Assembly: GCA_014871385.1 (NCBI GenBank)
Contig: CM026422.1
Location: 17,921,199-17,985,198, forward strand
Direction of reading: 5' to 3'
DNA: 64,000 nucleotides
DNA from: Ceratodon purpureus
Lineage: Eukaryota; Streptophyta; Bryopsida; Pseudoditrichales; Ditrichaceae
The position numbers and the translations under genes are program-made. Positions within the stretch are counted from its first letter, which is position 1. Each line of letters starts with the position of its first letter. This document shows, piece after piece, positions 14,032 to 63,971 of the stretch. The notes beneath the pieces are model-generated. The model ran no database searches, was not told the DNA's origin, and worked only from the letters and a program-made list of their open reading frames with translations.

Positions 14032-14129
14032 CGTGGGTTAGTTCTTGGGGCAATGGGGGCAGGAAATCAAAATCCAGATTTGGGATTAGCTAGAATAACG
14101 GCACTAGGGTGAACATGAAGTAATCATAG

Positions 14130-14510: not shown

Positions 14511-15866
14511 GAATTTTAATTGTGAACTCATCCTACGGTGGATAGTTTCAGTGAAACATGGATGAAAAATAAAGTTTCAATGAAACATCAAAGTGAACTA
14601 ATCTTTCTGTGCAGTACTGTGCATAGAAATAAATCCAATAAAAATCAAATGGAAAAAAAGGATCGAAGGTAGGCAAGCTGAGAAAAAGAATCCATATTTG
14701 CTGAAATTTAAATGAAACATCGATTTTTCTTAATTCATGCAGTAGATGGATGAAAATTGGATGGATGGAAGTTTGTCAAGCAAATGACATAGGAATTTGC
14801 AGCATTTACAGTGCAATCCAATTGAGAATACCAATTCTGCAAGGAATGAGTATTTGAACTTTGGATGCATCTCATCTGTACATCAATGGCAATGTCACTT
14901 TTAAACCGTAAACCTCCGACATTCCAAGCTCAAAACGATGCTTATTACCCTAAAAATTACCATTGTGTACAACAACTTCCCCAATACATAATCTGCTACC
15001 ACCAGAGAATTATAAAATACAACCTCAAAGGACGTTGTCAAATTTTACTAAACGTTAGCGCTTTCTAGTGTCAGCATCATAAAGGCGGCTTTAAGATTGA
15101 GGTGATCATGGTTGCAAATTATCCACTATGCTTCTTTGAGTCAGATTCCTTCAATCACGTACTACAAGGGTTGACTACTGTGATAAGCATGAACTGGAGA
15201 ATTTGGGTAGGAGATCAGGTTCAGGGACACATGAGATCGATTGATCGGGGCGTTCCCATCAAGCAGCAATACTCCATGTCCTTTCCAAGGTGAGAGCCGA
15301 CTTTTGAAACCGGATTTGCAAATCAGTCCAAAAAAATTAAAAGGTTTAATAATGCTGGAGCCGAACTACCAAAGGCAGAATTCACATTTTGATCGCATTT
15401 TCTAGGCTCCACTGACTAGGACCTTCTCAATCAACTTGTACATGTTGCATGGGCTGGGCGGCGTTGACACACTCCGTCATGATGGTTGAAGGATGTGTAC
15501 CGAAAACAGTGACTGGGCGGGAGAATTTATGAAATTCACCACTCTAATTCATCGTTTGAACTTACAACATCAAGGGTACAGTCCAGGACCCTCCATCATC
15601 GATCCTCACCCCATTAGAGCCACGCGATTAATCCACCCCACTTCATTGATTAAACAGACCACATCACGAATACGTAAGTTGACTTATTCCAATGTTCATA
15701 CAATGATAATACATCTGACTAAGAAGGACAGGGACTTCAGGATATTAGACTCACACCTCCAGGAAGATGTTCTCTCATTCTCTACGCCCTGCAACCAACT
15801 TTCTCATTCAACCCCGCATCTTCTCTCCCAAACTCCTCCTTAATTCTGCTGTAGCAATCTAGCTCG
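14511..15866. other. Intergenic region upstream of RING-like copy 3
   Basis: Moderately AT-rich. Reading frames at 14865-15068, 15102-15293 and 15493-15843 show no domain, no plausible splice sites and no good start context, so I do not call them. The promoter of the gene starting at 15867 must lie in the last few hundred bases. Confidence 0.4.
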
Positions 15867-18092
15867 ATGAGGAAAAGCAAGAAGCCACAGCGAGTGCTTG
15901 TGCCAGCAGTTCAGGCGAGTTCTAGTGAGACTAGCTCCTTCGAAACACCTCTGAGTTCTGATTTCATCAATCCATCGATTTGGGCTGAGGCATTCGACTT
16001 GAGCGGAGTAGGTGAGAATATGAGGAAGCACCTCACAACCGTGGCTCCGTTTCTACTAGGAGATGCCGCAGTCTATAGTTCTGAGTTTTTCGCTGACGTG
16101 GGAGGGTTGTGTAGCAACGGCGTCCCATTCAAGAAGTTGAGAGATGAGCACAAGCTCCCTTTGGAAGCCATTGTGGGCACCTATCCGCTCAACAAGAATG
16201 AAAATCGGCACCCTCTCCGCCACATGACTGATGATGTAGCCGCAAGAGCTCTTCGGATGTACCAGCGTGTCTATGGCGGGACTGCTCCAGACAACGGAGA
16301 ATTCGGGACTGCCTTCGTCAGGGGCTTGATGCTTGACGCAAAACGGTGGAAGATCAACTGGGCCGAAGGTGCGGCAGAGATCGCGAAGGTATGTTTCTTG
16401 CATACAGTTTCCTACCCCATTCTACTGTCAATGCACGTTCATGATTTTCGTCTTGTTCCTCAACTGTCGATGCGTTCCCACGATTTTTGTCTTGTTCATT
16501 ACTAACTGCGAGTTTGGATGAAGCAGAGCCGCCTCAAGACCCCTGTCTTGAATCCAGGGAAGCTCACCCCACCGTGCTTGCGCGAGCAGATCCAAGCCAT
16601 GTTGAAGTTGTTCAGGGCAGTGGTCGACAAGATGGTCCGCGAGAAGAATGCGGCAGCGAAGCCCTTGCAAGCCGAGGGAGCTGTGTCGCGACCAGTGGGC
16701 ATACATCGACAGCCACGTAGTGCAGTGACGTCGGAGGAAGCACGTCGCAAGTCCCCGCTTGGCAAGCTAAATGTGGTGGTGAAGGGTCCCACCGAAGCAG
16801 TGCCTCAGACTCCCCCAACCTCACCAACGCAGCCACGTGAGAGGAAGCCCACGGAGAGGAGTGTAGTTGCTTCGCTGGAGATCAAGCCTTCAGCCCAAGG
16901 TTCTGAACAACTGCGTAAGCAGCGTTTCATAAAGGAGGCCGCATTAGTCAAGGTGAAAGACGAGTTAGAGCGTGCTGAAATCGCGCTCGCTATGCGGGAG
17001 ACCAACCGCCAGGAGCTGTTGCGCTTGGAGCAATCAAAATGGGAGGAATTCGCCGGGATCCAGCAATCCAAGCAAGGCATGGTACTGGACGACGCCTCGA
17101 AGAAGGTGGTTGATACACGCCTGCGATCTCTCATGGAGGATGCGGTTGCCATCTCCACAAAGCTCGCGGCCTTGGTCCCCGAGATATCGCACTGGACTTT
17201 GGAAGCTGCAAACTTGCGATTGCAGTTGACCCCGCTTCAGGAGTCTGTTAACGAACTGAGCGCCAGAATTGACGTCCTCGTGGTGGCAGAGAGCTGCATA
17301 CGCCCACGACAATTCTATTCGACATTCCCAGTAAAACTTGATGAAATGGTCCCGCTGAAGATGGACCTCCCATGTGCAGAATGCGGTCGTTATTGGGCGG
17401 ATATGGCTCTGGTGAACCTACCTTGCGGCTGCCTTTTTCACCCGAGCTGCCTGTTCCAAGTTGCTTTATCCTCCAAACCTTGTTGTCCTGGATGCAACAC
17501 TAAGCCTTCTGTAGGCTGGATGGGCCAATGGGGCTTTAAATCAAACTTTGCTACAGCTGAGGCAGCATCATTGGCCGTTAATAGATCAGGCTGGGCGCCT
17601 CCTTTGACTCGCATCGAGGCCATGGCTATCAGTACTAAGCGCAAGATCGTTGACGCATCGCCCAGCAAACTTTCCTCCCCCAAACGACTCTGCCATGCAA
17701 GCATGTTCACAAAGCAGCCCGACGTTGAAGACAACGCGCACATCGCTTTGGCACCTGATATCCCTCCACGTGCTGCCGTGGGAGGTGTCGACGCTGATGC
17801 TTTGACATGCGCTCTTACCCTTCACAGCAAGTCACAGGTTGAAGTGGGAGAGGAAGTAGCAAGTGCCAGCCCGCACCATGCACAGTGCGCAACTACAGCA
17901 AAGGGAGTAGAAAGTGACACTGTCATGCACCCAAGCCAATACGCTGTATCATCTGGCCCCACTGAACCCACGGATGCACAGGAAACCTCGCGGGACGGAA
18001 CTGTAGGTGAAACAACTCGTACAGAGTATGGGGATATTCTCAACATCGCAAGTGAGGCGGCAGCAGAAGCAATTCCAACTACACCATCATGA
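15867..18092 (+). CDS. RING-like coiled-coil protein, copy 3 with long C-terminal tail
   Basis: Two exons, 15867-16388 and 16527-18092, give 695 aa. The 138-bp intron has AAG|GTATGT and AAGCAG|AGC ends and keeps frame. The helical domain is recognisable (FDLSGV, FFADVGGLC, KINWAEGA; compare FDLAGI, FFRDVVGLC, QVNWVAEA in copy 1) but diverged. Then come a Pro/Ser/Thr/Lys-rich linker (about 215-295), a coiled coil (about 300-430) and the RING-like finger at 457-497 (CAEC, CGCLFHPSC, CPGC) followed by WMGQW. About 190 aa of low-complexity tail follow, absent from copies 1 and 2. The intron position differs from copy 2. Function is unknown. Confidence 0.85.
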
Positions 18093-41718: not shown

Positions 41719-42245
41719 GATTGAGCCTTCTGAGAATGTGATCCCTTCGCAGCTTACTGTAGACGCTTTTCAGATTTCTCCTGGAAGAGAATTTCGTGTA
41801 TTTTGGATCGAACTTGAGTTGAACGGAACATGGTATTCAACAAAGAACACGCATACCATTTTCTTTTCAAGATGACCTCACAACTCTTCGAATTCATCTT
41901 GTAAACTGTGTGGTTTCATTTACCGTTTTGCAAGGAAGTCAATGGCATTGAGGCAATGATGTTGGAACTTGAAATTTCCAACACATTCTAAAACCACCAT
42001 CCCGTGTTCCACTGCAGCTCCTGGTCACTCTGGGAGTCGGGTGCAGCGTGGAGGTCGATGATGATTCCAAGAGCGCTGCAATCTTAGGTGTCAAAAACTC
42101 TGAAGTGCGGGATGGCAACCGAGTGTACAGGAACGGTCAACAGAAAATCTATGAAATGCGTTCCAGCTCGATGGAAAGAGCCTCCGCAGAATTTACCTGG
42201 TACAAATCAGTTAGTTCCGTATCCAGTGTTGAATTGACAAAATAA
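41719..42245 (+). pseudogene. Truncated 3' part of an unrecognised two-exon gene (left copy)
   Basis: Mirror copy of 49932-50517, minus its first ~20 codons, which lie outside the arm. Two coding-like segments: 41719-41875 (begins IEPSENVIPSQ) and 42018-42245 (after a CACTGCAG acceptor; LLVTLGVGCSVEVDDDSK, ending in a stop). An in-frame stop lies just upstream of 41719, so this copy has no 5' end. No family recognised. Confidence 0.4.
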
Positions 42246-43102
42246 ACATATTGACAGTTTAAAAGGTGATCGTGATAAGTATATGATGAGATTCGGAACC
42301 CACTGGCCCCATTTCAACGCGTCCTAAAAGACAACACAGAGATCCACACACAAACGGTGCTAAAAGAATTGGATCTTCCGCTACCCACCAGCCAACAGGG
42401 ATGCGAGCTGCATTTTTACGGACAATTTTCTTAAACCTGACAAAGCCACGCTCCCGAATTAAATTGCCTCTGTGATGTCGCGCATAAAACAGACACCGTT
42501 CACTTGTCCAAGACGTTTATTTACGAGGCGAGCGAAGTGCACCTCCACCATCACTGTTGAAATTGGGAGACCTTGTGTTCTAAATGTACACAGGAGACGC
42601 TGTGGGGTCTTTGGAATTGATGCCTTGGTATTAGTGGATCCCCTCCAGCGCTGATAATGGACAGGGTATACGCAATATTTGAGCGAGCGCAGTGAATTAC
42701 TAATCACAACTTATAAAAATTCTGAACTTTGGTATTTGTGACTCGTGAATTTCATTTCATAAACGTACACTCATTTTGGCTTCAACAGCTTGTTATTGCC
42801 ACACGGAATTCATTCTAAAACCTTTAAGACATCAAGAATATGGATACTGAACCAGGTGATGAGCACCAGAGACCCTAAATTGAATTCACACAGAGTAGAG
42901 TCGAATTTGGGAGACCTTGTGACTTTAAAGTGAACACACCCGACTCTGCAGTGGTGCAAATTACAACGGACGAGGGGGTTTCTGCATTGTTTGAGCGCAT
43001 AATTCTACGATGGCGGCGTGGATGGAGACCTCGGAGATGATACGCCAGAGGTAGGACGACATGTCATTCGGTCCTGAAATCGAGGTGCCGTCCGTACGCA
43101 CA

Positions 43103-43178
43103 GCGTCTGTAGTCCAACGGTTGGGATATTAGAGGTTTATCACAACCTTCAATATCCTAACCGTTGGACTACAGATGC
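43103..43178. repeat. Hairpin of two opposed tRNA-Gly(UCC) 5' halves
   Basis: 43103-43130 is the 5' half of a plant tRNA-Gly(UCC) (GCGTCTGTAGTCCAACGG, then a GG-to-GATATT end). 43151-43178 is the same half in reverse complement. They can pair over 28 bp (two visible mismatches), with a 20-nt loop that can itself pair AGGTT with AACCT. Neither half is followed by its 3' half. The mirror copy is at 48999-49074. Confidence 0.8.
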
Positions 43179-43281
43179 CTTTGTGGTCTGCTGGCCAGTA
43201 GGTGGCTGGGGTGGTCCCCTTCGGGGTTGTTGCGAGGACATTGCCTCGTTGTTATTTTCATATTCCTTTAAGCCGGACAGG

Positions 43282-43353
43282 CCCTTAACAATCCAACGGT
43301 TAGGATAATTGCCTTCCAAGCAATGGACCCGGGTTCGACTCCCGGCAGACACA
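43282..43353 (+). pseudogene. tRNA-Gly(UCC) pseudogene lacking its 5' acceptor strand
   Basis: From 43292 the sequence follows tRNA-Gly(UCC): D arm TCCAACGGTTAGGATAA, anticodon loop CTTCCAA with TCC, T arm GGGTTCGACTCCC with a perfect B box, and 3' acceptor CAGACAC. The ten bases where GCGTCTGTAG should be read CCCTTAACAA, so the acceptor stem cannot close. The missing 5' piece exists intact 180 bp upstream. Mirror copy at 48824-48895. Confidence 0.85.
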
Positions 43354-43380
43354 GCCACGTGTGCCAATGGCACACTGCCA

Positions 43381-43405
43381 GCTGGAATAGCTCAGTTGGT
43401 TAGAG
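43381..43405 (+). pseudogene. tRNA-Asn 5' fragment
   Basis: GCTGGAATAGCTCAGTTGG followed by TTAGAG is the acceptor and D arm of plant tRNA-Asn. The sequence then leaves the tRNA at the anticodon stem and becomes GC-rich DNA. The rest of a tRNA-Asn appears 340 bp downstream (43747-43819). Mirror copy at 48772-48796. Confidence 0.8.
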
Positions 43406-43591
43406 TTGGCGTGACCTTGGGTTCCGGTCCTCGACCTGTTCCGTCCCCCTCTGTTACCCGGACCCTCAGGGTTTGTTGTTGGCTTCGGCCGTGGGTCCCC
43501 TCGTGGGGGCCCCGGTCACCCGCTGGGTGCCTATCCCCGCACTAGGGCTTTGTCCTGGTTACTTTTTTAATTGCAGCCCAGAAAGGGATCT

Positions 43592-43650
43592 TTAAGCCCG
43601 GGCGCGGTTAGAGCCCGGGCGCGGTTAGAGCCCGGGCGCGGGGACCCCGG
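43592..43650. repeat. GC-rich 18-bp tandem repeat carrying a tRNA D-arm word
   Basis: Three head-to-tail copies of CCCGGGCGCGGTTAGAG. The GGTTAGAG part is identical to the D arm of the adjacent tRNA-Asn pieces. Following DNA to about 43,715 is rich in CCCGGG and GCGC words. Mirror copy at 48527-48585. Confidence 0.85.
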
Positions 43651-43746
43651 GCAAGCCCGGGGGTCCGCCCGCGCTTGATACGGGCTCCGCCCGTTCTCCC
43701 GCGCTTGTCGCGTTGTAATTTTACTTGGTTTCGTTTAACCCCGGGG

Positions 43747-43819
43747 GGGTATTTTGCTCAGGTGGTTAGAGCGTGTGGCCTTAACCACAAGGCCGGAGGT
43801 TCGACCCCTCCTTCTAGCG
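43747..43819 (+). pseudogene. tRNA-Asn pseudogene
   Basis: From GCTCAG (43756) to CTTCTAGCG (43819) it follows plant tRNA-Asn, including GGTTAGAGCGTGTGG and T arm GGAGGTTCGACCCCTCC with a perfect B box. The 5' acceptor strand is replaced by a T/G run, and the anticodon loop is one base short (CCTTAA instead of CTGTTAA), which destroys the GUU anticodon. Mirror copy at 48358-48430. Confidence 0.85.
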
Positions 43820-45096
43820 GCTAACCTTTTCCTCCTTAGCAAACATTTTGGCGAGATGGAAAAAGACGATAGGGGTGTTCAGAGTGGAGTTGAACCCCAT
43901 TTGAACCGCCACTTGATTACAGGCGGCGGACTCTCCTCGTTTCGTGTCACTGGAAAGGTTTCAAGTACTGGAAAGTCTTCGAGGAAGGTGGAGGCCTCCT
44001 CGATGAGTTTCCAGTGACCCTTTCTGACCTCGTCAGTGCCCTTTCTGAGAGTTCACTGGTGAAGTTTATCCACTCACCGGGTCCACCAAAATGAAGTCAA
44101 TTAATCTAGTGAGCAAAATCCAATGGAGCCAAAATAGTAGCTCATACTTCAAGTGGTTTCCTCGATTCCTATTGGATGCAAGTTTCTATTTGAGTGGCTC
44201 CTTCAAGTGGTCTCCTCTGCGACTCTGAACACCCTTGATGTCTACTCCTTTTATAAAACGCTCTATGATTCAAATCTCACATTCTTTGTAACTTCCATGA
44301 CTAATTACTTACAACTTCTATTTGTTTGCATTATTAGCTTCAAAGATAATATCTATTTGATATAGGCCGCCACCGTACTCACAAGTGTTGGCTTTTGTAG
44401 AACAAACAATCCACAAAAACGCACACCAACATTTCAATATTGAATTCAAGCCAAGAAGTGACAATGTCTTTCTTCCACCACAACCACCCTTGCTACCTAA
44501 AATCCTCCTTTTTTTTGGCAGTGTATAGGAACAAATACAAGCACCCAACATGCACCAACCAAGTGTTGCGTATTCTAACAAAATTGGCCATAGACATGGC
44601 ACCTCAAAAGCCAACCTCCAAGGTCAAACAACCATAGCAATTTTCATTTGTTGTATATTGGTAAAACACCCATATAACAAATGAAACTAGTCCATTGATT
44701 CTCTGAACATTTATTATTGTAAATAGAGAAGTAGCGGAGGAGTTTGAGATGGGCCGAGGGGTTCGTCATGGATGCCCTATGGCATCATACTTATATCTGT
44801 TTGTGGCGGACACCCTAGCTCGCATGTTCAACGACATGGTGAACGACATCGAGGGGCTCCAGCTACCAAACGGAGACACATTGAGGGAAGCTCTTTTTGC
44901 TGACGATTCGAACCTTTACCTCCAGGGCACTCCTGAGAATATGGATAGAGTGTACTCGGTACTTTAGTCTTTCTGCGGGGGCACAGGCTGAAATATCAAC
45001 TGGCCGAAGAGTGCTGCTATATGGGCCTCGGTTCGCCTCCAAACATGGACATGGAGTGCTGACAAAGGCTTACGGTGGATTCCAGAGGAGAGCTTG

Positions 45097-45496
45097 CATT
45101 ACGTGCAAAATGGGGTCATGAAAAGGCCGTGTAAGCCTGCCCTTTCTAGGTGAACCCCCTGCTACCCCCCGCACTGTCGCTGGCAGCGGGTGCCAGAGTT
45201 GCTGCCTGCACAGAACTGCGTGGCGCACTGTGAACAATCCTCCGAGGAATAATTCTTGAGACATGAATGACTTGTCTCGGGGTTTGGTCCCAAGTGGGCA
45301 GATGGTGTCAGCCCAACACTGTAGATTGTGCCCTCCACACGCCTCGCTCGGAGGTCATTGGTTGAGCCCCCGTGGCGGTTGCTGGCACCACGGTGGCACA
45401 TCACATGCCATGTCAAAAAGTACGCGGGCAGCGCCCGTTTTTTTCTCTCACGTGCCGCTTACACGGCCTTTTCTTGACCTCTTTTTGCACGTAATG
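45097..45496. mobile_element. ~400-bp TIR element (MITE-like) inside LINE B
   Basis: Terminal inverted repeats of 40 bp, 45097-45136 and 45457-45496 (coordinates sum to 90593), starting CATTACGTGCAAAA and ending AAAAGGCCGTGTAAGC, with about four mismatches. The interior is GC-rich and non-coding. LINE coding sequence stops at SLHYV on the left and resumes at FPIEFNMGEHEKK on the right. I see no clear target-site duplication, so superfamily is not assigned. Confidence 0.75.
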
Positions 45497-45857
45497 GTAA
45501 TCAGCTTAGGTTTCCTATTGAATTCAACATGGGTGAGCATGAGAAGAAGACCAAGGTGCTGACGCAAATAAGGAACAAGCTTAGCCAGTGGAAGAACAAG
45601 CCTTTATCCATGGTAGCACGGATTTTGGTTACAAACCAGGTCGTGCTGGCCTCTATTTGGTATATAGCCAGCTGTGCCGACTTCTCTCGGAGCATACTTG
45701 CCAAAGCTTGCACTATGGTGCGGAATTTTTTCTGGAGTGGTTCTCCTGACGGCCAGCCCCGAGCACGCGTAGCCTGGAATTCTGCGATCTTACCAACAAC
45801 TTTTGGGGGATCAAAGTTTTTGACCCGTATGCCCAGGCTTCAGCCCTGCTTGCCAAA

Positions 45858-46748
45858 ATGATCACTCATGGGATGGAGCCGGGAGCAGAGCCGTGGAAAA
45901 TTTTTCTACGACATAGAGTAAGTCAGCTCCAACTGAAACGTGAAGGCACTTGGCCCAAGAATCCGGAGTGGCTTCTCATAGGGAAGAAGATCAGTGACCA
46001 AGCCAGCCCCCTATGGCATAGGATATGGGCTGCCTGGTTAGAGGTTCGTCCTGGCACCATGAAGACCATACCCGCAACCAGAGAAGAGCTGCATCGCCAA
46101 GCGATTTTCTTTAATCCGCATTTGAAGAACGAGCAGGAGGTCATGTTTGGAGATGACCGCCCCGGGGTCTTTAGAAGATGGGCTGAGAAAGGAATCTCAC
46201 GGCTACACCATCTATGGGACCCTACTCGTCATCAGTGGTGGAGTGTGCAAGATACGCGATACGCTACTAGAATAGTTAATCTGGAAACCATACTCCCCCA
46301 GATCCACCAAGCTGTACTCTGGAGTATGGACACAAATTATATCAAACTCAAAGGAGACTTGCTCATGTTTGATGAGCCGAATAGTAATCTCCCTGAGGAA
46401 TTTTTCCATATCCAAAAGGTGTACTTGGAGGGGGACATGGACGCTATAGTGTACAGAAGAGTCAATCAGACCGAAAAACTGATGCGCGTCTCGGGACCCT
46501 ACCCCCTCCGGTTGCCTAAATGGAATTTCCAGCAGGCAAGAACAGTCCTCAAGAATCCTGAGGGGAAGATTGAATGCTTCAACCATCGTTATGTACCCCA
46601 TGTCCTCAAGCACTGGGAGGTCTTTGCGGTTTCTCATAGACGAGTCAAAGATTTGGAATTGGACTTAAAGGAATGGCCCTGGAAACGATCGGCCACCTTA
46701 AGCAGGGACATTTTTTTGATTATCCAACCAAGCGGGGTTATAAAATAA
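45858..46748 (+). pseudogene. LINE B post-RT region
   Basis: An open segment of 296 codons downstream of the RT thumb, beginning MITHGMEPGAEPWKIFLRH. A similar phrase in LINE A (LIRGMKPGEEPWKVFI, about 23,660-23,700 on the minus strand) shows both belong to one family. It connects, after a frame break, to the zf-RVT finger at about 46,956. No separate enzymatic domain recognised. Confidence 0.7.
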
Positions 46749-46925
46749 TCAACACTCGGGATGGAGTCACAACCCCTTTTACTTGCCTCATGCGATACAA
46801 GGACTACAACCTGTAATAGTGTAAACAATTTTACAAGGATCTGTGGCATAAATGGATACCTCGAAAGATATCCACTATGATCTCTCTGACTTGTAAATGG
46901 TGGGCTCCCGCTAGCGGCCTGGCGA

Positions 46926-47437
46926 ATGAGACTTGGTCCAGACAACGATGGGTTGTGTAACCTCTGCAACCTGAATGCGTGGGAGACTCCGGAACATTCG
47001 TTCTATGAGTGCCCAGCGGTTGAGGGAGTATGGGACAAGCTACAAAGAATGCAAGAACAAAGAATGCCGGTGATAAGCTACAAAGAATGCAAGAACTGGC
47101 GGACTTATCACCGGCACCAAGTTCCAACTAACTGGTGGCAAGCAATCTCAGGATTGTTTGATCCCCCGGTGCAACCGACAGCACCTCAGAGACCGCAAGG
47201 CAAACAAGAGGAGGCAGAGGACCAAGCACAACAACGCACAGATGAAACACCCTCGTCCATACTCAGAATGAGTATGATATGGTTCCTGTGTAGTGAAAAA
47301 TGTGCTTATGACCTGCGAGATGGGGATTTCCATGTAGGATTAGCACTTTTCCGGGCATGGCAGACAACGGTACAATTGAGGATGGGAGCATGGCAGGAAC
47401 TTGCAAAGAACAAAAAGCGCTCCAAATCCCGGAACCA
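46926..47437 (+). pseudogene. LINE B zf-RVT C-terminal segment
   Basis: Open segment with CNLCNLNAWETPEHSFYEC, the Cys-His finger typical of the C-terminus of plant non-LTR reverse transcriptases, followed by VEGVWDKL. A 33-bp phrase encoding YKECKNWRTY-like text is partly duplicated at 47,040-47,100. Frame continues to about 47,573 across the element boundary, which is not meaningful. Confidence 0.75.
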
Positions 47438-47451
47438 GGTTGCCTTATTAT

Positions 47452-50400
47452 TATTTATAATAATAAACGTTCAGAGAATCAATGGACTAGTTTCATTTGT
47501 TATATGGGTGTTTTACCAATATACAACAAATGAAAATTGCTATGGTTGTTTGACCTTGGAGGTTGGCTTTTGAGGTGCCATGTCTATGGCCAATTTTGTT
47601 AGAATACGCAACACTTGGTTGGTGCATGTTGGGTGCTTGTATTTGTTCCTATACACTGCCAAAAAAAAGGAGGATTTTAGGTAGCAAGGGTGGTTGTGGT
47701 GGAAGAAAGACATTGTCACTTCTTGGCTTGAATTCAATATTGAAATGTTGGTGTGCGTTTTTGTGGATTGTTTGTTCTACAAAAGCCAACACTTGTGAGT
47801 ACGGTGGCGGCCTATATCAAATAGATATTATCTTTGAAGCTAATAATGCAAACAAATAGAAGTTGTAAGTAATTAGTCATGGAAGTTACAAAGAATGTGA
47901 GATTTGAATCATAGAGCGTTTTATAAAAGGAGTAGACATCAAGGGTGTTCAGAGTCGCAGAGGAGACCACTTGAAGGAGCCACTCAAATAGAAACTTGCA
48001 TCCAATAGGAATCGAGGAAACCACTTGAAGTATGAGCTACTATTTTGGCTCCATTGGATTTTGCTCACTAGATTAATTGACTTCATTTTGGTGGACCCGG
48101 TGAGTGGATAAACTTCACCAGTGAACTCTCAGAAAGGGCACTGACGAGGTCAGAAAGGGTCACTGGAAACTCATCGAGGAGGCCTCCACCTTCCTCGAAG
48201 ACTTTCCAGTACTTGAAACCTTTCCAGTGACACGAAACGAGGAGAGTCCGCCGCCTGTAATCAAGTGGCGGTTCAAATGGGGTTCAACTCCACTCTGAAC
48301 ACCCCTATCGTCTTTTTCCATCTCGCCAAAATGTTTGCTAAGGAGGAAAAGGTTAGCCGCTAGAAGGAGGGGTCGAACCTCCGGCCTTGTGGTTAAGGCC
48401 ACACGCTCTAACCACCTGAGCAAAATACCCCCCCGGGGTTAAACGAAACCAAGTAAAATTACAACGCGACAAGCGCGGGAGAACGGGCGGAGCCCGTATC
48501 AAGCGCGGGCGGACCCCCGGGCTTGCCCGGGGTCCCCGCGCCCGGGCTCTAACCGCGCCCGGGCTCTAACCGCGCCCGGGCTTAAAGATCCCTTTCTGGG
48601 CTGCAATTAAAAAAGTAACCAGGACAAAGCCCTAGTGCGGGGATAGGCACCCAGCGGGTGACCGGGGCCCCCACGAGGGGACCCACGGCCGAAGCCAACA
48701 ACAAACCCAGAGGGTCCGGGTAACAGAGGGGGACGGAACAGGTCGAGGACCGGAACCCAAGGTCACGCCAACTCTAACCAACTGAGCTATTCCAGCTGGC
48801 AGTGTGCCATTGGCACACGTGGCTGTGTCTGCCGGGAGTCGAACCCGGGTCCATTGCTTGGAAGGCAATTATCCTAACCGTTGGATTGTTAAGGGCCTGT
48901 CCGGCTTAAAGGAATATGAAAATAACAACGAGGCAATGTCCTCGCAACAACCCCGAAGGGGACCACCCCAGCCACCTACTGGCCAGCAGACCACAAAGGC
49001 ATCTGTAGTCCAACGGTTAGGATATTGAAGGTTGTGATAAACCTCTAATATCCCAACCGTTGGACTACAGACGCTGTGCGTACGGACGGCACCTCGATTT
49101 CAGGACCGAATGACATGTCGTCCTACCTCTGGCGTATCATCTCCGAGGTCTCCATCCACGCCGCCATCGTAGAATTATGCGCTCAAACAATGCAGAAACC
49201 CCCTCGTCCGTTGTAATTTGCACCACTGCAGAGTCGGGTGTGTTCACTTTAAAGTCACAAGGTCTCCCAAATTCGACTCTACTCTGTGTGAATTCAATTT
49301 AGGGTCTCTGGTGCTCATCACCTGGTTCAGTATCCATATTCTTGATGTCTTAAAGGTTTTAGAATGAATTCCGTGTGGCAATAACAAGCTGTTGAAGCCA
49401 AAATGAGTGTACGTTTATGAAATGAAATTCACGAGTCACAAATACCAAAGTTCAGAATTTTTATAAGTTGTGATTAGTAATTCACTGCGCTCGCTCAAAT
49501 ATTGCGTATACCCTGTCCATTATCAGCGCTGGAGGGGATCCACTAATACCAAGGCATCAATTCCAAAGACCCCACAGCGTCTCCTGTGTACATTTAGAAC
49601 ACAAGGTCTCCCAATTTCAACAGTGATGGTGGAGGTGCACTTCGCTCGCCTCGTAAATAAACGTCTTGGACAAGTGAACGGTGTCTGTTTTATGCGCGAC
49701 ATCACAGAGGCAATTTAATTCGGGAGCGTGGCTTTGTCAGGTTTAAGAAAATTGTCCGTAAAAATGCAGCTCGCATCCCTGTTGGCTGGTGGGTAGCGGA
49801 AGATCCAATTCTTTTAGCACCGTTTGTGTGTGGATCTCTGTGTTGTCTTTTAGGACGCGTTGAAATGGGGCCAGTGGGTTCCGAATCTCATCATATACTT
49901 ATCACGATCACCTTTTAAACTGTCAATATGTTTATTTTGTCAATTCAACACTGGATACGGAACTAACTGATTTGTACCAGGTAAATTCTGCGGAGGCTCT
50001 TTCCATCGAGCTGGAACGCATTTCATAGATTTTCTGTTGACCGTTCCTGTACACTCGGTTGCCATCCCGCACTTCAGAGTTTTTGACACCTAAGATTGCA
50101 GCGCTCTTGGAATCATCATCGACCTCCACGCTGCACCCGACTCCCAGAGTGACCAGGAGCTGCAGTGGAACACGGGATGGTGGTTTTAGAATGTGTTGGA
50201 AATTTCAAGTTCCAACATCATTGCCTCAATGCCATTGACTTCCTTGCAAAACGGTAAATGAAACCACACAGTTTACAAGATGAATTCGAAGAGTTGTGAG
50301 GTCATCTTGAAAAGAAAATGGTATGCGTGTTCTTTGTTGAATACCATGTTCCGTTCAACTCAAGTTCGATCCAAAATACACGAAATTCTCTTCCAGGAGA

Positions 50401-50458
50401 AATCTGAAAAGCGTCTACAGTAAGCTGCGAAGGGATCACATTCTCAGAAGGCTCAATC
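47452..50458. repeat. Right arm of inverted repeat 2 (3,007 bp)
   Basis: Mirror of 41719-44725. All tRNA-derived pieces, GC repeats and candidate exons recur in opposite orientation. The outer edge at 50458 lies about 180 bp beyond the stop of the short conserved gene (50639) and cuts through a candidate exon that continues to 50517. That makes the right arm the more likely original locus, if the exon is real. Confidence 0.97.
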
Positions 50459-53889: not shown

Positions 53890-55637
53890 GAGATTCTTCT
53901 AAAATCCATAATTTTTATATTGTAACTTCAAAATTATGCTTTTCAGAAATTGTGCCACTAGAAAGCTATTAGTGAAAGCTATTTGTACTAAACATATTAG
54001 AAGATTTCAAAAATCTATGACCCTCAAATAGCCTATCTCGAAGGTTTGCAACCACGATGCAATCGCAAAGTACTTTAGCGGTTAATATTCAAATACCAAC
54101 AACCTTTATCAAATTCAAACAAATGTTCGAGTAGTGGCATTTTTGTTGCTTGAGGATACAAAACTCTTTATTGAAAAAATAGAGACTTTTTTTTATAGAA
54201 TTATTCAAAAAGAATATGCCGCATGTTAAAAATCAAACATATTTCCATCTTACATGTAACAACTCTATATCTATAAGCTTCGATGCATCCGTGTAGGATG
54301 TTCATGAAGTATTGTATAACTTGAGATTGTATTCTGAACGTAAGAGTTAATTGTCAAATTGTTGTCTGACAATTAACTTGGGATTTAATTTGTGCCAAAA
54401 AGAGAAAGAAAAAGTATTGTATGATTGTAATAGTTTAGCTATTATATTTTGAAGCAAAAAGACGAAATAAACTTAAACATAAAAGAGTACAAAAATAGTA
54501 TAACTTGTGATTCATGGAAGCTTCACATGGCTACAGTCCATGGCCAAAGATACCTTCTTCATGTTCTTTAATTTAAAAGGTATCTTTATTTTAATGCGTA
54601 AGGTAGTTTATTCCAATGCGATAGATAGTTTATTTCAGATGAACTCCTCACCGGCAAAAAATACGAAGGCCAAAGATATCTATTTAGACCTTCAACGACA
54701 ACTTTGGAAGGCGTACCAATTTCAATTCTGAGGACTAAAGAATGTGCAAGCAACTCCTGTCGATCACTACTTACCAAATTTGCGAAGTTCGATCACCGTT
54801 TCATTGCCCCGAAACAACGTATTCTGAAGACAAGGCTCGCATGTTCTAATTAAGGACTACGTGCTGAAATTTCTTATCTGCTCGCGCAAGACTCAAATTC
54901 ACTTTGGAAGAAAAATGCGTACACAAATGTCAGTCTTCGAACATGCCCATCTCAATCTATGAGATGGACAATGGAGAGTGATAACTTGAGTCAGTCGAGG
55001 CTCTCTTGAGTCTCTTCCACCCTGGCGGTGGCACATACCGGCATAATCCGTTACTGTCTGCTTATATATAACATGACCTCTTTGAACAATAATGAAAGAA
55101 AGAATGAGTCCGTCGAGAACGTCGATGACATACTTACAAAACTATTCAGTTTCCTAAACCTAGATACACAAAATTACTGGTACACTATAATTTGCCTGTG
55201 AAACTAACCATTTGAAATCCGCCACTACGGAGACCAGGTATTTCACAGCTTCTACAAAGATTCATACATATCAATTTGAACTTCATCATTCGTAAGGCGG
55301 TGTATTAGATATTTTCGAAATGGAGCAAGTGCAGTATGCAGTAATCTGCAGATGGTGCTAAATTTTTCCATATTTATGTTTCGACATTTGATCCCCAGAA
55401 AAAGGGTTATAAGGATTGTGTATCACTAATTACCTTTGAAGTACAGGATATTGAACCCACTAAACCTTGGTAATATAGGATCCAGCTTTAATAAATCTTC
55501 TCATCAACAACCTAAAAGCCTGACTTCTAAGATCTCTAATTATCGTATGACCTACAGATGATTCGGTCGATCACAAACGAGGGAGGTGGAAAATTGTTTC
55601 GTTTTTGCCAAGAATATTTGAAAAATAATCATCCAAT

Positions 55638-56780
55638 CTACTTGTTAACAGCTCTGCAGTTCGTGCGAATCTGGCCGTCAGTGTCCGTGAGCACTCGAAT
55701 ATTGCCCATCTTCACCATCGCCTTAGCGAATGCATCGAAAAACGCTGCCGTCTTGCGGTACTTCTCTACCATGACCCGAGTCGATGCATCAGTATACAAC
55801 GCCTGATCCGACACGAGCATACCCTTCTTAACCGCTAGATTGTTGTAATACTCGGTGTCGAATTGCAGGTCCGTCGTGAAGTCCAGGTCGAACGTCCTCG
55901 TCTTGAGCCCGCGATCGCGGCACTTCTTCTTCAGCTTCTTCGCGTAGTCTGCCGGGATGTTGGGGTCCACTCCATCCTTGCTCGGATAGTTATATATCCT
56001 ACTATCCACGTGGTGGCATGCGGCATCACCGATCGTGTGAGCACCCGAGAGTATCACCATCTCTTCCTTCGACAGCCCCTGATTTGCGAAGTTAGCCACA
56101 AGCTGCGTCACATTTGACTGCGCGTCGGGTAAGAACTTGGAGGCATCGTCAGCCATCGAGACGTTCCCGTCGCGCCGACCCGCGGGGACCGCGTAATTTG
56201 GTCCAAGAGTGATCGACACACTGTCGCGCGCGGCGAATGCCAGAATGTCAGCGCATGAGACCACTCCAGGGCATTTCTCCTCCAGCGCAGATTTGATCGC
56301 GTCCACCGCTTCGAAGCCCAGTAGACGAGCATTGGGCGGAGCGGTCTTCTCCGACTTTGGAACGTCCAGAAGCACGGATGCATCACAGCCCTGCACAAGC
56401 CAACCAGTTGCACTTTCGGCTTCATATAGGCAGCGAATTGTAGCAAGCGAAGGTGACATCATGAGTCAAAATTCATTGATTATAACGCATGAAAGATTCA
56501 TGATGTGCCGTCATCTTGAAGATCGAGTGCTTACCCTGACGAAACAGTCGTGGAAGTGGAGACGGAGGAGGGTAGCGGGAATGCCTGGACCCTCCTCTGG
56601 GTCTGCGTCTATGAGTGTCTGGAGCGTTTGCAAGACGATGGTCTCCGCATCTGGGCAGCTATTGCTGTAGTAGCCTACTTGCAGAGGAACTGCACTCTCC
56701 ACTCCATGGCAACTCAACACTGCCACTACCACCAAAGCTACGAAACAGAAAGAGACCCTCGCATTCACCATCTTTGCCAA
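55638..56780 (-). CDS. Class III peroxidase, copy 1
   Basis: Two exons, 56780-56535 and 56390-55638 (intron 144 bp, AGG|GTAAGC and GTGCAG|GGC), give 332 aa. A signal peptide (about 1-29, hydrophobic core FCFVALVVVAVLSC) predicts secretion to the cell wall or vacuole. Distal haem-side motif is RLHFHDCFVR (Arg73, His77); proximal His200 is in LSGAHTIGDAAC. All eight conserved Cys are present, ending in TNCRAVNK. These enzymes oxidise phenolics with H2O2 in wall cross-linking, defence and ROS control. A TATATAAATA box lies about 130 bp upstream. It differs from copy 2 at 13 residues. Confidence 0.95.
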
Positions 56781-56903
56781 TCAGTACTCACCGAACCACG
56801 TCACTAACTCAGGGCCACCCCTGCACCGGTGATCAACTAGAAATGCAATCCTACATGCATGTGCTCTGCGATGTACTACGATATTGTACTCTCGCAGATT
56901 GGG

Positions 56904-56913
56904 TATTTATATA
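56904..56913 (-). promoter_or_regulatory. TATA box of peroxidase copy 1
   Basis: On the minus strand TATATAAATA, about 125-135 bp upstream of the ATG at 56780. The aligned position in copy 2 is TATATATA, so the box is conserved in place but not in exact sequence. Confidence 0.65.
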
Positions 56914-58436
56914 ATCGTATTGAGAGCACGTTTGATCGCAATTAGCCGACGTTGTGCATGCACAGCTCAGTCTAGCCTACAACCAGCTGAGTCGGTTGCA
57001 AGTTGCGAATCTAGTGCATGCAGCCTTTACAGATTCAAGGCTGGCACTGTGGCACGGGACGCACACTCCGTACTCTAAATGTGGTACGATATCATACGTG
57101 AGGACAGCTGAAAAGGCAGTAACTAAAAGCGAACTTGTAAAACTACCGCCTCCTCGAAGTTATGATCCCGAATGTCAACTCCGGAGTTCCCTTGCGAAAG
57201 TTCGTTGTCTGATTCGCTTCACCCAGTCTTGGCATTTCCAAAAGCCTACTTTACAGGTCTAGTGCCTACATTCGAGTCTGTGAAATCTTCATTATGTATA
57301 TAATGTAAGTTATGTGTAAGCTCTCTGCATTTGATCTGATTTTTCTCTTTGAAAAGTCATCAAAGATAGGCAAAGTAAAATTGCAGTTTCGTCGTGATCC
57401 GCTGCAAGGGAAGGGCTATCTTGCATCATCATCTGCATCTGGAGGGTCGCTCCCACTGTGTCTGTGACGTAGCGTCTGCCACTACGAGCGGATTCATTAC
57501 GTTGGACCTTAGGATTCAAATAGGTCGAGAGTAAAACATAGTTGACCCTCCATTTCTGCATTTCTAAAGCTGACCATTCTTGGCATGTGTTTTAAAGCAG
57601 GTGCTGGACTTGGTGGCTTCTGCTACCCACACTCCCTACTTAGAACAGGACGCTATGAAACATGTTTTTTGCTTGACATTCATGTCTAAATTCAGGGCGA
57701 AAGTAATGGCAACTCCTTCAAATGCTATAAATAATATTCTGGAGTTAACTTATTCTAAAAGGTCTCGCAGATTTTCCCATAGGATTGGATCTTATGACTA
57801 CCGAATTTTTTGAAAGGATGGTAAAATATTTCAGACATTAAAAACTTGCAAAAGGCCCAAGTGTTGCAACACATTCTCCCACACCCAGAGTTGCTGGGTT
57901 GACTCTTCGAGTGTATCTGCGTGGTGGAGGGCATTTTTCATGGCTAGCAACGATGAGATTGGCGTCCACATGACAAGGACTATACCAGCATCTACGTGAT
58001 GGTGTGATTGACCACAGATAGGCTGTCATGTGGTACTGGGTGATGAAAATCCATGCAAAACGAACTGGACTAAAGAGTCAAGACTAGAGTGATAGTTTGT
58101 TTGCAAATCATGCTCTGTATGCTAAGACAAATCATTAACAGATTGGACTGATGCTGAACGAAGAGCTTGTAAGATCTGGCCAATTTCTCAGCATTAAAAA
58201 TATTCTTCAAGAATTCAGTTTGTAACAGTTGTATATTTAGTACTGTAGCATCTCACTGTTTCTGTAAGTTACTGCCTTCTTCAAATTCTCCTCTGCTCCA
58301 AACGGCTTTGCTTAGGTCAAAGGATCACATTTCTAAGTAGAACAGCACATTTCATTTAATGACGGCCATTCAAGGGTTAACTCTGTCTAAGGTTATAGCA
58401 TGCATCCGTTTGTGTTGCACCAAAAAAGACACATTA
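56914..58436. other. Peroxidase 1 upstream region and spacer to kinase fragment
   Basis: Matches 61,881-63,411 of the second unit with substitutions and indels. It contains CAGCTCAGTCTAGCCTACAA and TGGTACGATATCATACG conserved in both, which may be promoter elements. No gene supported. Confidence 0.5.
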
Positions 58437-58501
58437 TCAGGCTGGGCAAAAGATTGTTGCCAAGCCTCGATCAACTGTGACATCTACTGGAGGTCCATAA
58501 G
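58437..58501 (-). pseudogene. Sphingosine kinase 3' fragment (last ~21 codons)
   Basis: Reads YGPPVDVTVDRGLATIFCPA and stop on the minus strand, the same peptide as the end of the intact exon at 63412-63606. The match stops at 58,501 in mid-exon. The next bases (AGCATCCCCAATCG...) are unrelated to the kinase. This is a by-product of the tandem duplication breakpoint. Confidence 0.9.
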
Positions 58502-58735: not shown

Positions 58736-60602
58736 AAAGATTCTTCCAACTCCCTTTAGATTTTTTGAAAATTATGCTTTGAAAATTGTATCACTGGAAA
58801 GCTATTAGTAAAAGCTATATATACTAAATATATTAGAAAATTTCAAAATTCTATCAACTTCAAATAGCCTACCTCGAAGTCTTGCAACCACAATGCGGTT
58901 GGTATGTTGCAAAGAACTTTAGGGGTTAATATTTAAATGCCAACAACATTTATCAATTTCAAGCAAATGTTTTAGTATTGGCATTTTTGTTGCTTGAGGA
59001 CACAAAACTCTTTATTGAAAAAATAGAGATCTTTTTGTATAGAATTATTAAAAAAAATATATGCCGCATTTTAAAAAACAAATATATTTCTATCTTACAT
59101 GTATCAATTCTATATCTATAAGCTTTGATGCATCCGTGTAGGATGATTCTGCAATATTGTATAATTTGAGATTGTATTCTAAACGTGAGAGTGCAAATCT
59201 AATGAAATGTGGCTCTCTCTTCCTTCCCACATTCAAATTGTTGTCTGACAACTAACTTAGCGTATATTTGTACCCTTTACAACTAAACGGCATTTAATTT
59301 GTGCCAAAAAGAGAAAGAAAAACTATTGTTCGATTGTAATGGTTTATCTATTATTTTTTGAGGCAAAAGGACGAAATAAACTTAAACTTAAAAGAATACA
59401 AAAATAGTGTAACCCAACCACGGTTGTGATTCATGGAAGCTTCACATGGCTACAGTCTATGGCCAAAGTCCCTGTTCTCCAATTTAAAAGGTAACTTTGT
59501 TTTAATGCAAAAGGTAGTTTGTTCCAATGCGATAGGTAGTTTATTTCAGGTGAATACCTCACCGGCAAAAAATACGCCAAAGGTATCTATTTAGACCCTT
59601 CAACGACAATATTGGAACCTCACGAGAAGCGTACTGGATTCGATTCTGAATACTGAAGAACGTGCAAGCAACTCCTGTCGATCACAGCTTTCCAAATTTC
59701 CGAAGTTCGATCACCGTTTCCTTGCCCCGAAACAACGTATTCTGAAGACAAGGCTTCCATGTTCTAAGGCCTACGTGCTGAAATTTTGTCTCTGCTCGCG
59801 CAAGACTCAAATTCCCTTTGGAAGAAAAATGCGTACACAATTATGTCAGCGTTTTAACATGCCATTCTTAATCTGTGAGATGAGAAAATTATAGACAGTG
59901 AAAATTTAAGTCAGTCGAGGCTCTCGTCTGATCCGGCGGTATCACATGCCGAGCATGATCCGTTACGTATCGTGTGCTGATACATGGCCTCTTTGAATAT
60001 TGAATATGAAAGAAAGATTGAGTCAGTTGAGGATGATGTTGTCACGAAATATTTCAGTTTCCTGAATCTGAATTCAGACACAAAATGACTGGTACACCAG
60101 AACCGGCTATGAAACTAACCATTTGAAACCCGCCACTATTTACAGCAGATATTTCACTTGTACAAAAATTCGTATATATCAATGAACGAGGTTTGAACTT
60201 CAGCATTTGTAAGGAGGTTATATGTTAATGTTTCCAAAACGGAGCAATTAGTGCAGTACTGTATGCAGTAATCTGCTTCGTAAGAGATTTTTCCATCTTT
60301 ATGTTCCGAAATCTCATCCAGCACAAGGGTAAGAATAGAGTATCATTCTCCGATCACATAATCGGAACTTACTGATCTAGATACCAATTACCGTTGAAGT
60401 AATCAGCGCTTGTTGAACCCACTATACCTTGGATACGTATGATCCAGCTTCAATAAATCTTCTCATCAACAACCTAAAAGCCTGACTTCTAAGATCTCTA
60501 ATTATCGTATGATCAACTCCAGATGATTCGGTCGATCACAAACGAGGGAGGTGGAAAATTGTTTCGTTTTTGCCAAGAATATTTGAAAAATAATCATCCA
60601 AT

Positions 60603-61745
60603 CTACTTGTTAACAGCTCTGCAGTTCGTGCGAATCTGGCCGTCAGTGTCCGTGAGCACTCGAATATTGCCCATCTTCACCATCGCCTTAGCGAATGCAT
60701 CGAAAAACGCTGCCGTCTTGCGGTACTTCTCTACCATGACCCGAGTCGATGCATCAGTATACAACGCCTGATCCGACACGAGCATACCCTTCTTGACCGC
60801 TAGATTGTTGTAATACTCGGTGTCGAATTGCAGGTCCGTCGTGAAGTCCAGGTCGAACGTCCTCGTCTTGAGCCCGCGCTCGCGACACTTCTTCTTCAGC
60901 TTCTTCGCGTAGTCTGCCGGGATGTTGGGGTCCACTCCATCCTTGCTCGGATAGTTATATATCCTACTATCCACGTGGTGGCATGCGGCATCACCGATCG
61001 TGTGAGCACCCGAGAGTACCACCATCTCTTCCTTCGACAGCCCCTGATTTGCGAAGTTAGCCACAAGCTGCGTCACATTTGACTGCGCGTCGGGTAAGAA
61101 CTTCGATGCTTCGGAAGCGATCGAGACGTTCCCATCGCGTCTACCCGAGGGGACCGCATAATCTGGTCCGAAAGTAATCGATACACTGTCGCGCGCGGCG
61201 AATGCCAGAATGTCAGCGCATGAGACCACTCCAGGGCATTTCTCCTCCAGCGCAGATTTGATCGCGTCCACCGCTTCGAAGCCCAGTAGACGAGCATTGG
61301 GCGGAGCGGTCTTCTCCGACTTTGGAACGTCCAGAAGCACGGATGCATCACAGCCCTGCACAAGCCAACCAGTTGCACTTTCAGCTTCATATAGGCAGCG
61401 AATTGTAGCAAGCGAAGGTGACATCATGAGTCAAAATTCATTGATTATAACGCATGAAAGATTCATGATGTGCCGTCATCTTGAAGATCGAGTGCTTACC
61501 CTGACGAAACAGTCGTGGAAGTGGAGACGGAGGAGGGTAGCGGGAATGCCTGGACCCTCCTCTGGGTCTTCGTCTATGAGCCTCTGGAGCGTCTCCAAGA
61601 CGATGGTCTCCGCATCTGGGCAGCTATTGCTGTAGTAGCCTACTTGCAGAGGAACTGCACTCTCCACTCCTTGGCAACTCAACACTGCCACTACCACCAA
61701 AGCTACGAAACAGAAAGAGACCCTCGCATTCACCATCCTTGCCAA
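60603..61745 (-). CDS. Class III peroxidase, copy 2
   Basis: Same structure as copy 1: exons 61745-61500 and 61355-60603, 144-bp intron, 332 aa, signal peptide, RLHFHDCFVR, LSGAHTIGDAAC and eight Cys. The intron differs from copy 1 by one base. Protein differences cluster: five in exon 1 (residues 3-60) and six at 144, 147, 152, 161, 163 and 164, with only two conservative changes further on (Ile/Val195 and one Asp/Glu). Residues 144-164 lie in the stretch ahead of the GRRDG motif and just after it. Both copies look functional. Confidence 0.95.
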
Positions 61746-61872
61746 TCAGTACTAACCAGGCTACCACATAAACCCCAGGGCCACCCCCACACCGGTGATC
61801 AACTAGATATGCAATTGAGAAAGAAAATACTATGCGATGTAGTGCACTCTTGTCCTGTTGCAGACCGTCGGG

Positions 61873-61880
61873 TATATATA
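61873..61880 (-). promoter_or_regulatory. TATA box of peroxidase copy 2
   Basis: TATATATA about 130 bp upstream of the ATG at 61745, at the position aligned with the TATATAAATA of copy 1. Confidence 0.6.
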
Positions 61881-63411
61881 TGATCGTTTTCAGAGCACGC
61901 TTGATCGCAATTAGCCGACGTTGAGTAGCACAGCTCAGTCTAGCCTACAAGCAGCTGAATCGGGTGCAACTTGCGAATCTATTGCAGGCTTTACAGATTC
62001 AAGGCTGGCACTGTGGCACGAAACGCACACTCCGTACCTAAATGTGGTACGATATCATACGAGGACAGCTGAAAAGGCAGTAACTTATACTTAACTTGTA
62101 AAACTACCGCATCCTCGAAGTTATGATCCCGAATGTCAACTCCGGAGTTCCCTTGCACTTCCATTGTCTCATTCGCTTCACCCATTGTTGGCATTTCCAA
62201 TAGCCGTCGCTGTACCGGAAATTTTTACTTTCCACGTACTTTCGAGTCTGTGGATGGTGTAAGTTTTGTGTAAGCTTTCTGCATTTGACCTAATTTTTTT
62301 CTTTGATGAGTCACCGAACTAAGGCAAGGTAAATTGCAGTTTCATCGTGATCCGCTGTAAGGGAAGGGTGACTAGATCTTATTTCCCCTTCATTGCATCA
62401 TCATCTGCATCTGGAGTGTCGGTCCCACTGTGTCTGTGACGTAGCGTCTGCCATTCCGAGTGGATTCAAATAGGACGATGGTAGCCTAAAATATTATAGT
62501 TGTACCCTCCATTTCTTCATTTCTGAAGCTGACCATTCTTGGCATGTGTTTTAAAGCAGGAGCTGGACTTGGTGGCTTCTGCTAACCACACTCCCTACTT
62601 AGAACAGGGCGCTATGAAACATGTTTTTTGCTTGGTATTCGTGTCTAAATTCAGGGTAGAATGGAATGGCTCCCCATCAAATTGCTATATATAATATTCA
62701 GGAATATTCATTTAAAAAGGTCTTACACTTTTTCCCATAGGATTGGATCTTATGACTACCGAATTTTTTGAAAGGATGGTAGTATAATATTATAAACACT
62801 TAAGACTTGTAGAAGGGCCAAATGTTGTAACACATTCTCCCATACCCTGCTATGAAAAACACCCACTCCGAGAGTTGCTTGACTCGTCGAGTGTATCTGC
62901 GTGGTAGAGGGGGGCATTTTGCATGGCTAGCAACGATGAGATTGGCGTCCACATGACAAGGACTATACCTGCATCTACGTGATGGTGTGATTGACCACAG
63001 ATAGGCTGTCACGGGGTGGTGGGGTGATGAAAATCCATGCAAAACGAACTGGACTAAAGACCAGTTTGCAAATCATGCTTTGTATGTTAAGACAAATCAT
63101 TAACAGGTTGAACTGATACTGAACGAAGAGCTTGAAAGGTCTAACCAATTTCTCAGCATTAAAAATATCTTCAAAAATTCAATTTGTAACAGTTGTATAT
63201 ATAAGATTGTAGCATCTCACTGTTTCTATAAGTTAATGCCTTCTTCAAATTCACCTCTGCTCCAAACGACTTTGCTTAGGTCAAAGGATCACATTTCTAA
63301 GTAGAACAGCACATTTCATTTAATGACGGCCATTCAAGGGTTAACTCTGTCTAAAGTTATAGCATGCATCCGTTTGTGAAGCACTGGGAACGCACCAAAC
63401 AAGACACATAA

Positions 63412-63971
63412 TCAGGCAGGGCAAAAGATTGTTGCCAAGCCTCGATCAACTGTGACATCTACTGGAGGTCCATAAGTCATGATATCGCTGCTTCCATCAC
63501 CTACAGTACCCCTGCCCCTTGCAAGGATCTCACCATCTAAATCGATGTAGCCACCTTGAATGTCACTTCCGTAACGGCCAGCAGGATCAAGTCGAAATGC
63601 CTTCACCTGTTGTACCAATAACAACATAAGTCTATATCATCCTCAACACAAACCCGTATTGTAACGTACAACAGCATTTCACCCGTTATAAATCCATTCT
63701 ATCAAAAGTAGAACTGCTCGCCACCAGTAATTATTTTCCTACTTCTGAAACTCAATGTGACTGCTACAGTACACAGCTAGACAGGAGCATGGTAAAAAAT
63801 ACAATTGAAATATAACTAAGAACTTCCAAACCGTGGGGTTATGGATACCTTGAGATATTCCACGTATTTAGATTTGATGTGTCCTCCGGTTTGAAGTTTA
63901 AGAAGTAAATTTAGTAACGTCCAACGAGGACAATCCTTCATAATAATCAAGTCCAAACACCCATCTGAGAA
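63412..63971 (-). CDS. SPHK: Sphingosine kinase, last two exons (gene continues beyond window)
   Basis: Exon 63971-63849 (41 codons: FSDGCLDLIIMKDCPRW ... TGGHIKSKYVEYLK) and last exon 63606-63412 (64 codons plus stop: VKAFRLDPAGRYG ... YGPPVDVTVDRGLATIFCPA), both phase 0, joined by AAG|GTATCC and ACAG|GTG. The DGCLDLIIMK and TGGHIKS phrases and the final GPP-x4-VD-x-GLATIF correspond to the C-terminal part of plant sphingosine / long-chain-base kinases, which phosphorylate long-chain bases to signalling lipids. The ATP-binding N-terminal domain lies to the right of the window. Its last exon was the breakpoint of the tandem duplication. Confidence 0.9.

Follow-up and report, generated by a model that had tools for sequence, protein, structure and literature searches.

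The 64,000-bp stretch of Ceratodon purpureus contig CM026422.1 analyzed here (the window; positions are counted from its first letter) contains two 3,007-bp arms in inverted orientation, enclosing a 2,726-bp spacer that is occupied by a fragment of a long interspersed nuclear element (LINE). The inverted repeat is a real feature of the given sequence. The origin we favor, with just short of half of our confidence, is an inverted duplication made by break repair, through fold-back or template switch, in which the LINE fragment came to lie as a passenger at the fold-back tip. The LINE is probably such a passenger rather than the cause or driver of the structure, and the locus is most likely a further case of the known fold-back repair duplications, with joints that are unusually legible.

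The arms and the LINE fragment between them

A previous sequence-only reading of this DNA had described the arms as free of indels and different at about three positions, and BLAST self-comparison bore this out: the left arm (41719-44725) matches the right arm (50458-47452) over 3,007 bp at 99.90% identity, with 3 mismatches and 0 gaps. At this length a chance origin of the similarity is not an issue. Base-by-base comparison placed the mismatches at 43468/48709, 44709/47468 and 44719/47458 (left/right), two of the three lying within the innermost 17 bp (P ~1e-4, assuming an even spread of mismatches). Outside 44709-44725 the arms show one difference in 2,990 bp. In both comparisons the left arm thus has a plain part of 2,990 bp on the plus strand (41719-44708), with a single mismatch at 43468, and the right arm (47452-50458, minus strand) is the reverse complement of the left.

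Under an assumed rate of 7e-9 substitutions per site and year, the one difference in 2,990 bp corresponds to an arm age of ~24,000 years. The figure ranges from 8,000 to 167,000 years for rates from 2e-8 to 1e-9, becomes ~3x greater when all three mismatches are counted, and would understate the age if the arms had been homogenized. Conversion between these arms is possible, though not needed, and the proposal that they are either young or homogenized is consistent with the anatomy of the junctions described below.

Arms that mirror each other at 99.9% are also what fold-back chimeras yield, and a fold-back or chimeric read, or a misjoined contig, could in principle have made the mirror image during assembly. 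A simple fold-back read would, however, continue into a mirrored right flank, and the left flank has no similarity to the right flank by self-BLAST or word comparison. Two false joins would therefore be needed, and the arms moreover hold an interior difference (43468/48709). The unmirrored left flank lowers the probability of an artefact without removing it, and we consider an artefact improbable.

As far as similarity and open frames indicate, the spacer is a fragment of an L1-like LINE (44713-47444, plus strand), running from the reverse transcriptase (RT; the VN..RGVRHGCP region) to the zf-RVT domain and a C-terminal frame. The two domains by which we recognize an L1-like element without long terminal repeats (non-LTR), RT and zf-RVT, were both found by Pfam (RVT_1, E=0.0049; zf-RVT, E=0.00031), each match lying under its gathering score. 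Over 106 aa, the RT shares 45% identity with another RT of the window (24450-24133, minus strand), which itself matches RVT_1 with E=6.7e-21. Similarity to LINEs spans ~44713-45030, 45502-45923 and 46896-47033, and the remaining spacer is open frame apart from an element of ~400 bp nested within it (45097-45496), identified in a repeat search by its 40-bp terminal inverted repeats (TIRs; 93% identity, 320 bp between them). A search for relatives of the LINE in viral contigs gave no match.

The homology-bearing frames of the LINE contain five stops (44965, 44989, 46746, 46878 and 46887), and one frame change separates the frames of 45478 and 45750 (open frame 45478-45861). Given these five stops, the frame change and the nested TIR element, as against a single difference between the arms over 2,990 bp, the LINE looks much older than one would judge from the near-identity of the arms.

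Judging from its sequence, the LINE seems to be cut at both ends, not at the 5' end alone. Its left end lies inside the reverse transcriptase. On the other side, the frame open from 46890 crosses the right junction without a stop, and no stop codon, 3' untranslated region (UTR) or poly(A) is visible at that junction. The earlier reading had described the spacer as exactly a 5'-truncated LINE, but the 3' side appears to be cut as well, and on the left the LINE homology begins inside the arm, at 44713. Target-primed insertion preserves the 3' end of a LINE, and a complete 3' end with a tail was not found here, although a tandem-repeat tail is conceivable: short tandem repeats terminate some LINEs. 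Since no 3' end is visible, whereas target-primed insertion keeps it, ordinary retrotransposition of the LINE to this spot is unlikely. The suggestion that the structure arose by repair during LINE integration runs against the same missing stop, 3' UTR and poly(A), and against the contrast between the decayed, interrupted LINE and the nearly unchanged arms. An exact fit of a LINE between two arms is no proof that the LINE gave rise to the structure.

Junctions and the proposed route of the duplication

The left inner junction (44709-44725, plus strand) is AT-rich and overlaps LINE coding sequence (..IIVNR..). When the RT of the window's other LINE was used in tblastn, homology began at 44713, within the left arm, with IIVN.. 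aligned to VLVN.. of the other LINE. In a 16-mer scan, TTTATTATTGTAAATA (44710-44725) agreed at 15 of its 16 positions with the tip of the right arm when the latter was reverse-complemented. By comparison, the best match in 300 mononucleotide-shuffled LINE sequences was 13 (reached in 2 of the 300), and 13 is also the next-best value on the plus strand of the window. Based on the overlap with LINE coding sequence and the 15/16 match, the innermost 16 bp of the left arm look like junction microhomology rather than plain arm. A repeat of this kind is the expected trace of fold-back or template switching on short inverted sequences that match imperfectly.

Where the LINE meets the right arm there is a hairpin, TTATTATTAT-TT-ATAATAATAA (47445-47466, plus strand). 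A hairpin scan found no other perfect hairpin in the window that combines a stem of at least 10 bp with a loop of at most 4 nt. Dinucleotide shuffles of the whole window (n=30, 64 kb) contained a mean of 0.63 such hairpins, with a range of 0 to 5, and none of 1000 local 600-bp shuffles placed one within 30 bp of the right junction. The hairpin is a candidate for a former palindrome center with a 2-nt spacer, or for a fragile site and nucleus of fold-back. The locus shows three features of a fold-back duplication: two inverted copies with a spacer (3,007-bp arms, 2,726-bp spacer), short inverted homology at the spacer/arm boundary (15/16 on the left, a 10-bp stem at the right edge), and, as described below, an outer end joined without a target-site duplication.

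The hairpin would equally be the old center of the structure if the LINE had retrotransposed into the middle of a pre-existing palindrome, whose arms were then kept identical by gene conversion. An 8-bp direct repeat, TTATTATT, found in a shared-word scan of the plus strand at 44711-44718 on the left and at 47445-47452 and 47448-47455 on the right, flanks the LINE on both sides and was considered as its target-site duplication. This order of events could also draw on a tandem-repeat tail, and gene conversion in palindromes is well known (PMC3723533). The repeat is, however, a low-complexity word, the missing 3' end of the LINE is as awkward here as for any target-primed insertion, and conversion would have had to erase nearly all differences between the arms during the time in which the LINE decayed. 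An insertion into an existing palindrome therefore appears to us a poor candidate.

The outer ends of the arms have no direct or inverted 6-base words in common within 60 bp, and no adjacent duplication of 3-10 bp (shifts up to 2). The 6-base word GTTTGA, found both in the LINE next to the left inner junction and in the flank outside the right arm, is taken as chance. Without an outer target-site duplication there is no support for a transposon with long TIRs, and the outer ends are consistent with end joining. Long inverted termini around cargo would indeed be expected of a mobile DNA element with 3-kb TIRs (MULE- or Foldback-like) that had captured a LINE fragment. Against such an element speak the outer ends, which carry no direct repeat, and the arm contents: in the five left-arm open reading frames (ORFs) scanned, of six that reach at least 80 aa, there was no transposase or other Pfam family above the cut-off, the best matches below it being DUF6703 (E=0.06) and PAS_9 (E=0.18). 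We regard a mobile element as barely credible.

Staggered-break inversions can leave inverted duplications around a segment. Had the LINE segment been inverted with staggered breaks, fill-in would have duplicated the 3-kb arm on both sides; a Drosophila inversion is the subject of PMC7584159. Two break sites with a 3-kb stagger would be required at the present locus, and neither the 15/16 repeat nor the hairpin is predicted, making this route very unlikely.

A closer competitor is a fold-back across a wide loop. Here the truncated LINE would already have lain beside the right arm, and after a break in the LINE the 3' strand would have folded back, 2.7 kb away, on the 15/16 repeat and copied the arm, so that the LINE became the loop (the "disomic spacer") and lost its 5' half. 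Such a single event would place the 15/16 repeat exactly at the left junction and explain its mismatches as LINE letters, and spacers of a few kb are the usual finding in human inverted duplications (PMC3907307). It leaves unexplained, however, that the arm edge falls within ~10 bp of the LINE 3' edge, that the window's only strong hairpin sits at that edge, and that the LINE apparently lacks its 3' end. Though possibly lost, the 5' half of the LINE was also not found in the left flank, where the window's other RT had no match. ORF1 of the window's other LINE gave one weak match there (E=0.18, 37955-37752), and none of the flanking ORFs of at least 55 aa that were scanned (10 of 23 in the left flank, 10 of 24 in the right) had a Pfam match to an RT or endonuclease with an E-value of 0.1 or less. 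We hold this wide-loop origin to be unlikely on balance.

Our preferred explanation, a patch of LINE sequence at the fold-back tip, would begin where the right arm ends on its inner side, with a double-strand break at the AT-rich hairpin. After resection, the 3' end would have folded back and paired through short inverted homology, and ~3 kb of its own strand would have been copied outward by a polymerase to give the left arm. Release of the new end, and its joining to the other side of the break, would have left no target-site duplication, and the fragile tip would have been patched with ~2.7 kb copied or captured from an old degenerate LINE copy. This patching may have followed the formation and renewed breakage of a nearly spacerless palindrome centered on TTATTATTAT-TT-ATAATAATAA, or it may have taken place within the same chain of template switches. 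In the single-chain version, the break would occur at the hairpin, the LINE piece would be copied, fold-back would take place on the 15/16 repeat, and the arm would be copied and joined to the other end. What the sequence shows is the identity of the arms, a decayed LINE apparently cut on both sides, the 15/16 repeat and the hairpin at the inner junctions, and outer ends with no target-site duplication; we infer the break, the path of the polymerase, the order of the steps and which of the arms came first. Template switching or repair had been raised as an origin in the sequence-only reading, and this fits the junction anatomy. The meeting of LINE ends and arm edges, which it took as a sign that one event created both, is better accounted for by a LINE fragment that fills a gap at the fold-back tip, with AT-rich short inverted repeats at the junctions.

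A more specific form of this explanation, which is possible but which we put forward with considerable reserve, is that fold-back on the 10-bp AT hairpin nucleated a palindrome, which was rescued when the LINE fragment was copied into its tip via the 15/16 microhomology. If true, this would be a natural example from a plant in which an inverted duplication is coupled to a distant templated insertion, and the insertion stabilizes an otherwise unstable palindrome.

Several points weigh against a patch at the tip. The low complexity of the 16-mer lowers its weight, and 12- and 13-base matches occur elsewhere on both strands of the window. The 3' end of the LINE was judged without a second copy of the family, and TTATTATTAT could be a tandem-repeat tail. 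If the palindrome formed first, the 6/7 match at the left tip (GTAAATA against ATAAATA) is left to chance, and only 1 of 2,694 LINE 7-mers matches that well; fold-back on the 15/16 repeat alone leaves the hairpin at the right edge to chance instead. Every order of events needs one coincidence in this way, apart from the more complex one-chain version. All of the orders considered, whether loop, patch or single chain, are nonetheless forms of break repair by template switching, and about half of our weight goes to a tip patched by the LINE, with a quarter going to the wide loop.

Contents of the arms and of the rest of the window

Each arm carries two interrupted tRNA genes. In the left arm, a tRNA-Gly(TCC) gene (43103-43353, plus strand; mirrored at 48824-49074) is split by a 163-bp insert, with the Rfam tRNA match at 43290-43345. 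The insert is bounded by 16-bp direct repeats at 43113-43128 and 43292-43307 (15/16), and when its flanks were joined ARAGORN reported tRNA-Gly(tcc). A second tRNA gene (43381-43819, plus strand; mirrored at 48358-48796) is interrupted by an insert of 350 bp, with 16-bp direct repeats on either side (43390-43405 and 43756-43771; 15/16); its Rfam tRNA match (43756-43811) lies exactly at the gathering score, and its joined flanks gave an ARAGORN tRNA with no assigned type, which we take to be Asn. In the unaltered window ARAGORN found no tRNA.

Both genes are interrupted after tRNA position 25-26. The splitting of two different tRNA genes between 16-bp direct repeats suggests an element that targets tRNA genes. 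The 163-bp and 350-bp inserts show no significant likeness to each other (61 of 500 shuffles equal or exceed their score). Non-LTR elements specific to tRNA genes have been reported elsewhere (PMC4640811).

At 43103-43178, within the split tRNA-Gly, lies an inverted copy of the gene's own 5' half and the start of the insert, with 35-nt arms at 89% identity and a 6-nt loop. It forms a small fold-back duplication nested in the arm. Weak microRNA and small-RNA matches at 43099-43185 fall on this inverted tRNA half, far under their gathering scores, and are taken as chance. The long double-stranded or hairpin RNA of 3 kb that the arms could encode would arise only if the locus were transcribed, and the structure is now probably inert.

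Elsewhere in the window there is a second inverted repeat (7370-8773 and 12629-14032; 1.4 kb, 98%), with tandem units of ~219 bp. It encloses an ORF at 10634-11830 with a weak RING-like match (E=0.19). By eye, without alignment, this ORF and the regions 841-2355 and 15855-18092 appear to be one gene family with a weak RING-type C-terminus; the Pfam zf-RING_2 matches of the three, in the order 841-2355, 10634-11830 and 15855-18092, have E=0.0054, 0.19 and 0.23, all below the cut-off. PARP and plant RST domains lie at 35-37 kb; these and the peroxidase ORFs described next give the window the look of plant nuclear DNA. A tandem duplication (55425-58501 and 60383-63476, 89%) bears two peroxidase ORFs, at ~55.6 and ~60.6 kb, that are nearly identical. 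The first matches the Pfam peroxidase family with E=2.9e-73, its best solved match being royal palm peroxidase, and we presume the enzyme to be class III. When a peroxidase of the window was compared with bacterial and archaeal genomes, 109 stretches fit a pattern and none is a true relative.

Comparison with known systems

The palindromes of sex chromosomes, in human (PMC3723533) and willow (PMC7023750), share with our locus their near-identical inverted arms (>99.9% on the human Y), and are described as large or complex. Filler DNA placed by synthesis-dependent strand annealing (SDSA) in plants (PMC4423477) resembles it in that a foreign segment is brought in at a break during repair, whereas the patch proposed here would sit at the tip of a palindrome.

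Nonrecurrent inverted duplications with a disomic spacer in human patients (PMC3907307) come closer, as their spacers are mostly a few kb long and short inverted sequences lie at the boundary, as is the case in the window. LINE or SINE repeats were present at 3 of 21 sequenced junctions. Those duplications are large and end in terminal deletions, translocations or rings, whereas here the copy is of 3 kb and interstitial.

In yeast, fold-back occurs on an imperfect 10-nt inverted microhomology, followed by synthesis by Pol delta, release, and joining to the other end by nonhomologous end joining (NHEJ; PMC11724301). The duplications described there and in PMC10622511 are like the one proposed here in their short imperfect inverted microhomology, in the copying of their own strand, and in release and joining to the other end. 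The same yeast assay also yields distant templated insertions, to which the LINE patch may be compared. The local copies in yeast are mostly 5-34 bp, with a 41-nt loop, whereas here ~2,990 bp would have been copied around 2.7 kb, in an event that is reconstructed from its product. With regard to such distances, in the long single-stranded DNA of a yeast telomere-capping mutant the instability of inverted Alu repeats is about the same whether 12 bp or 30 kb lie between them (PMC10164571).

Among the literature titles and abstract openings covered, there was no small inverted duplication from a plant in which a LINE forms the spacer, the willow sex-chromosome palindromes (PMC7023750) being known, and the fold-back inverted duplications that we found described are from yeast and human patients. 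A young case from a plant, with joints that can still be read, would show that this route also operates in a germline, and how a long palindrome can persist once it has gained a spacer.

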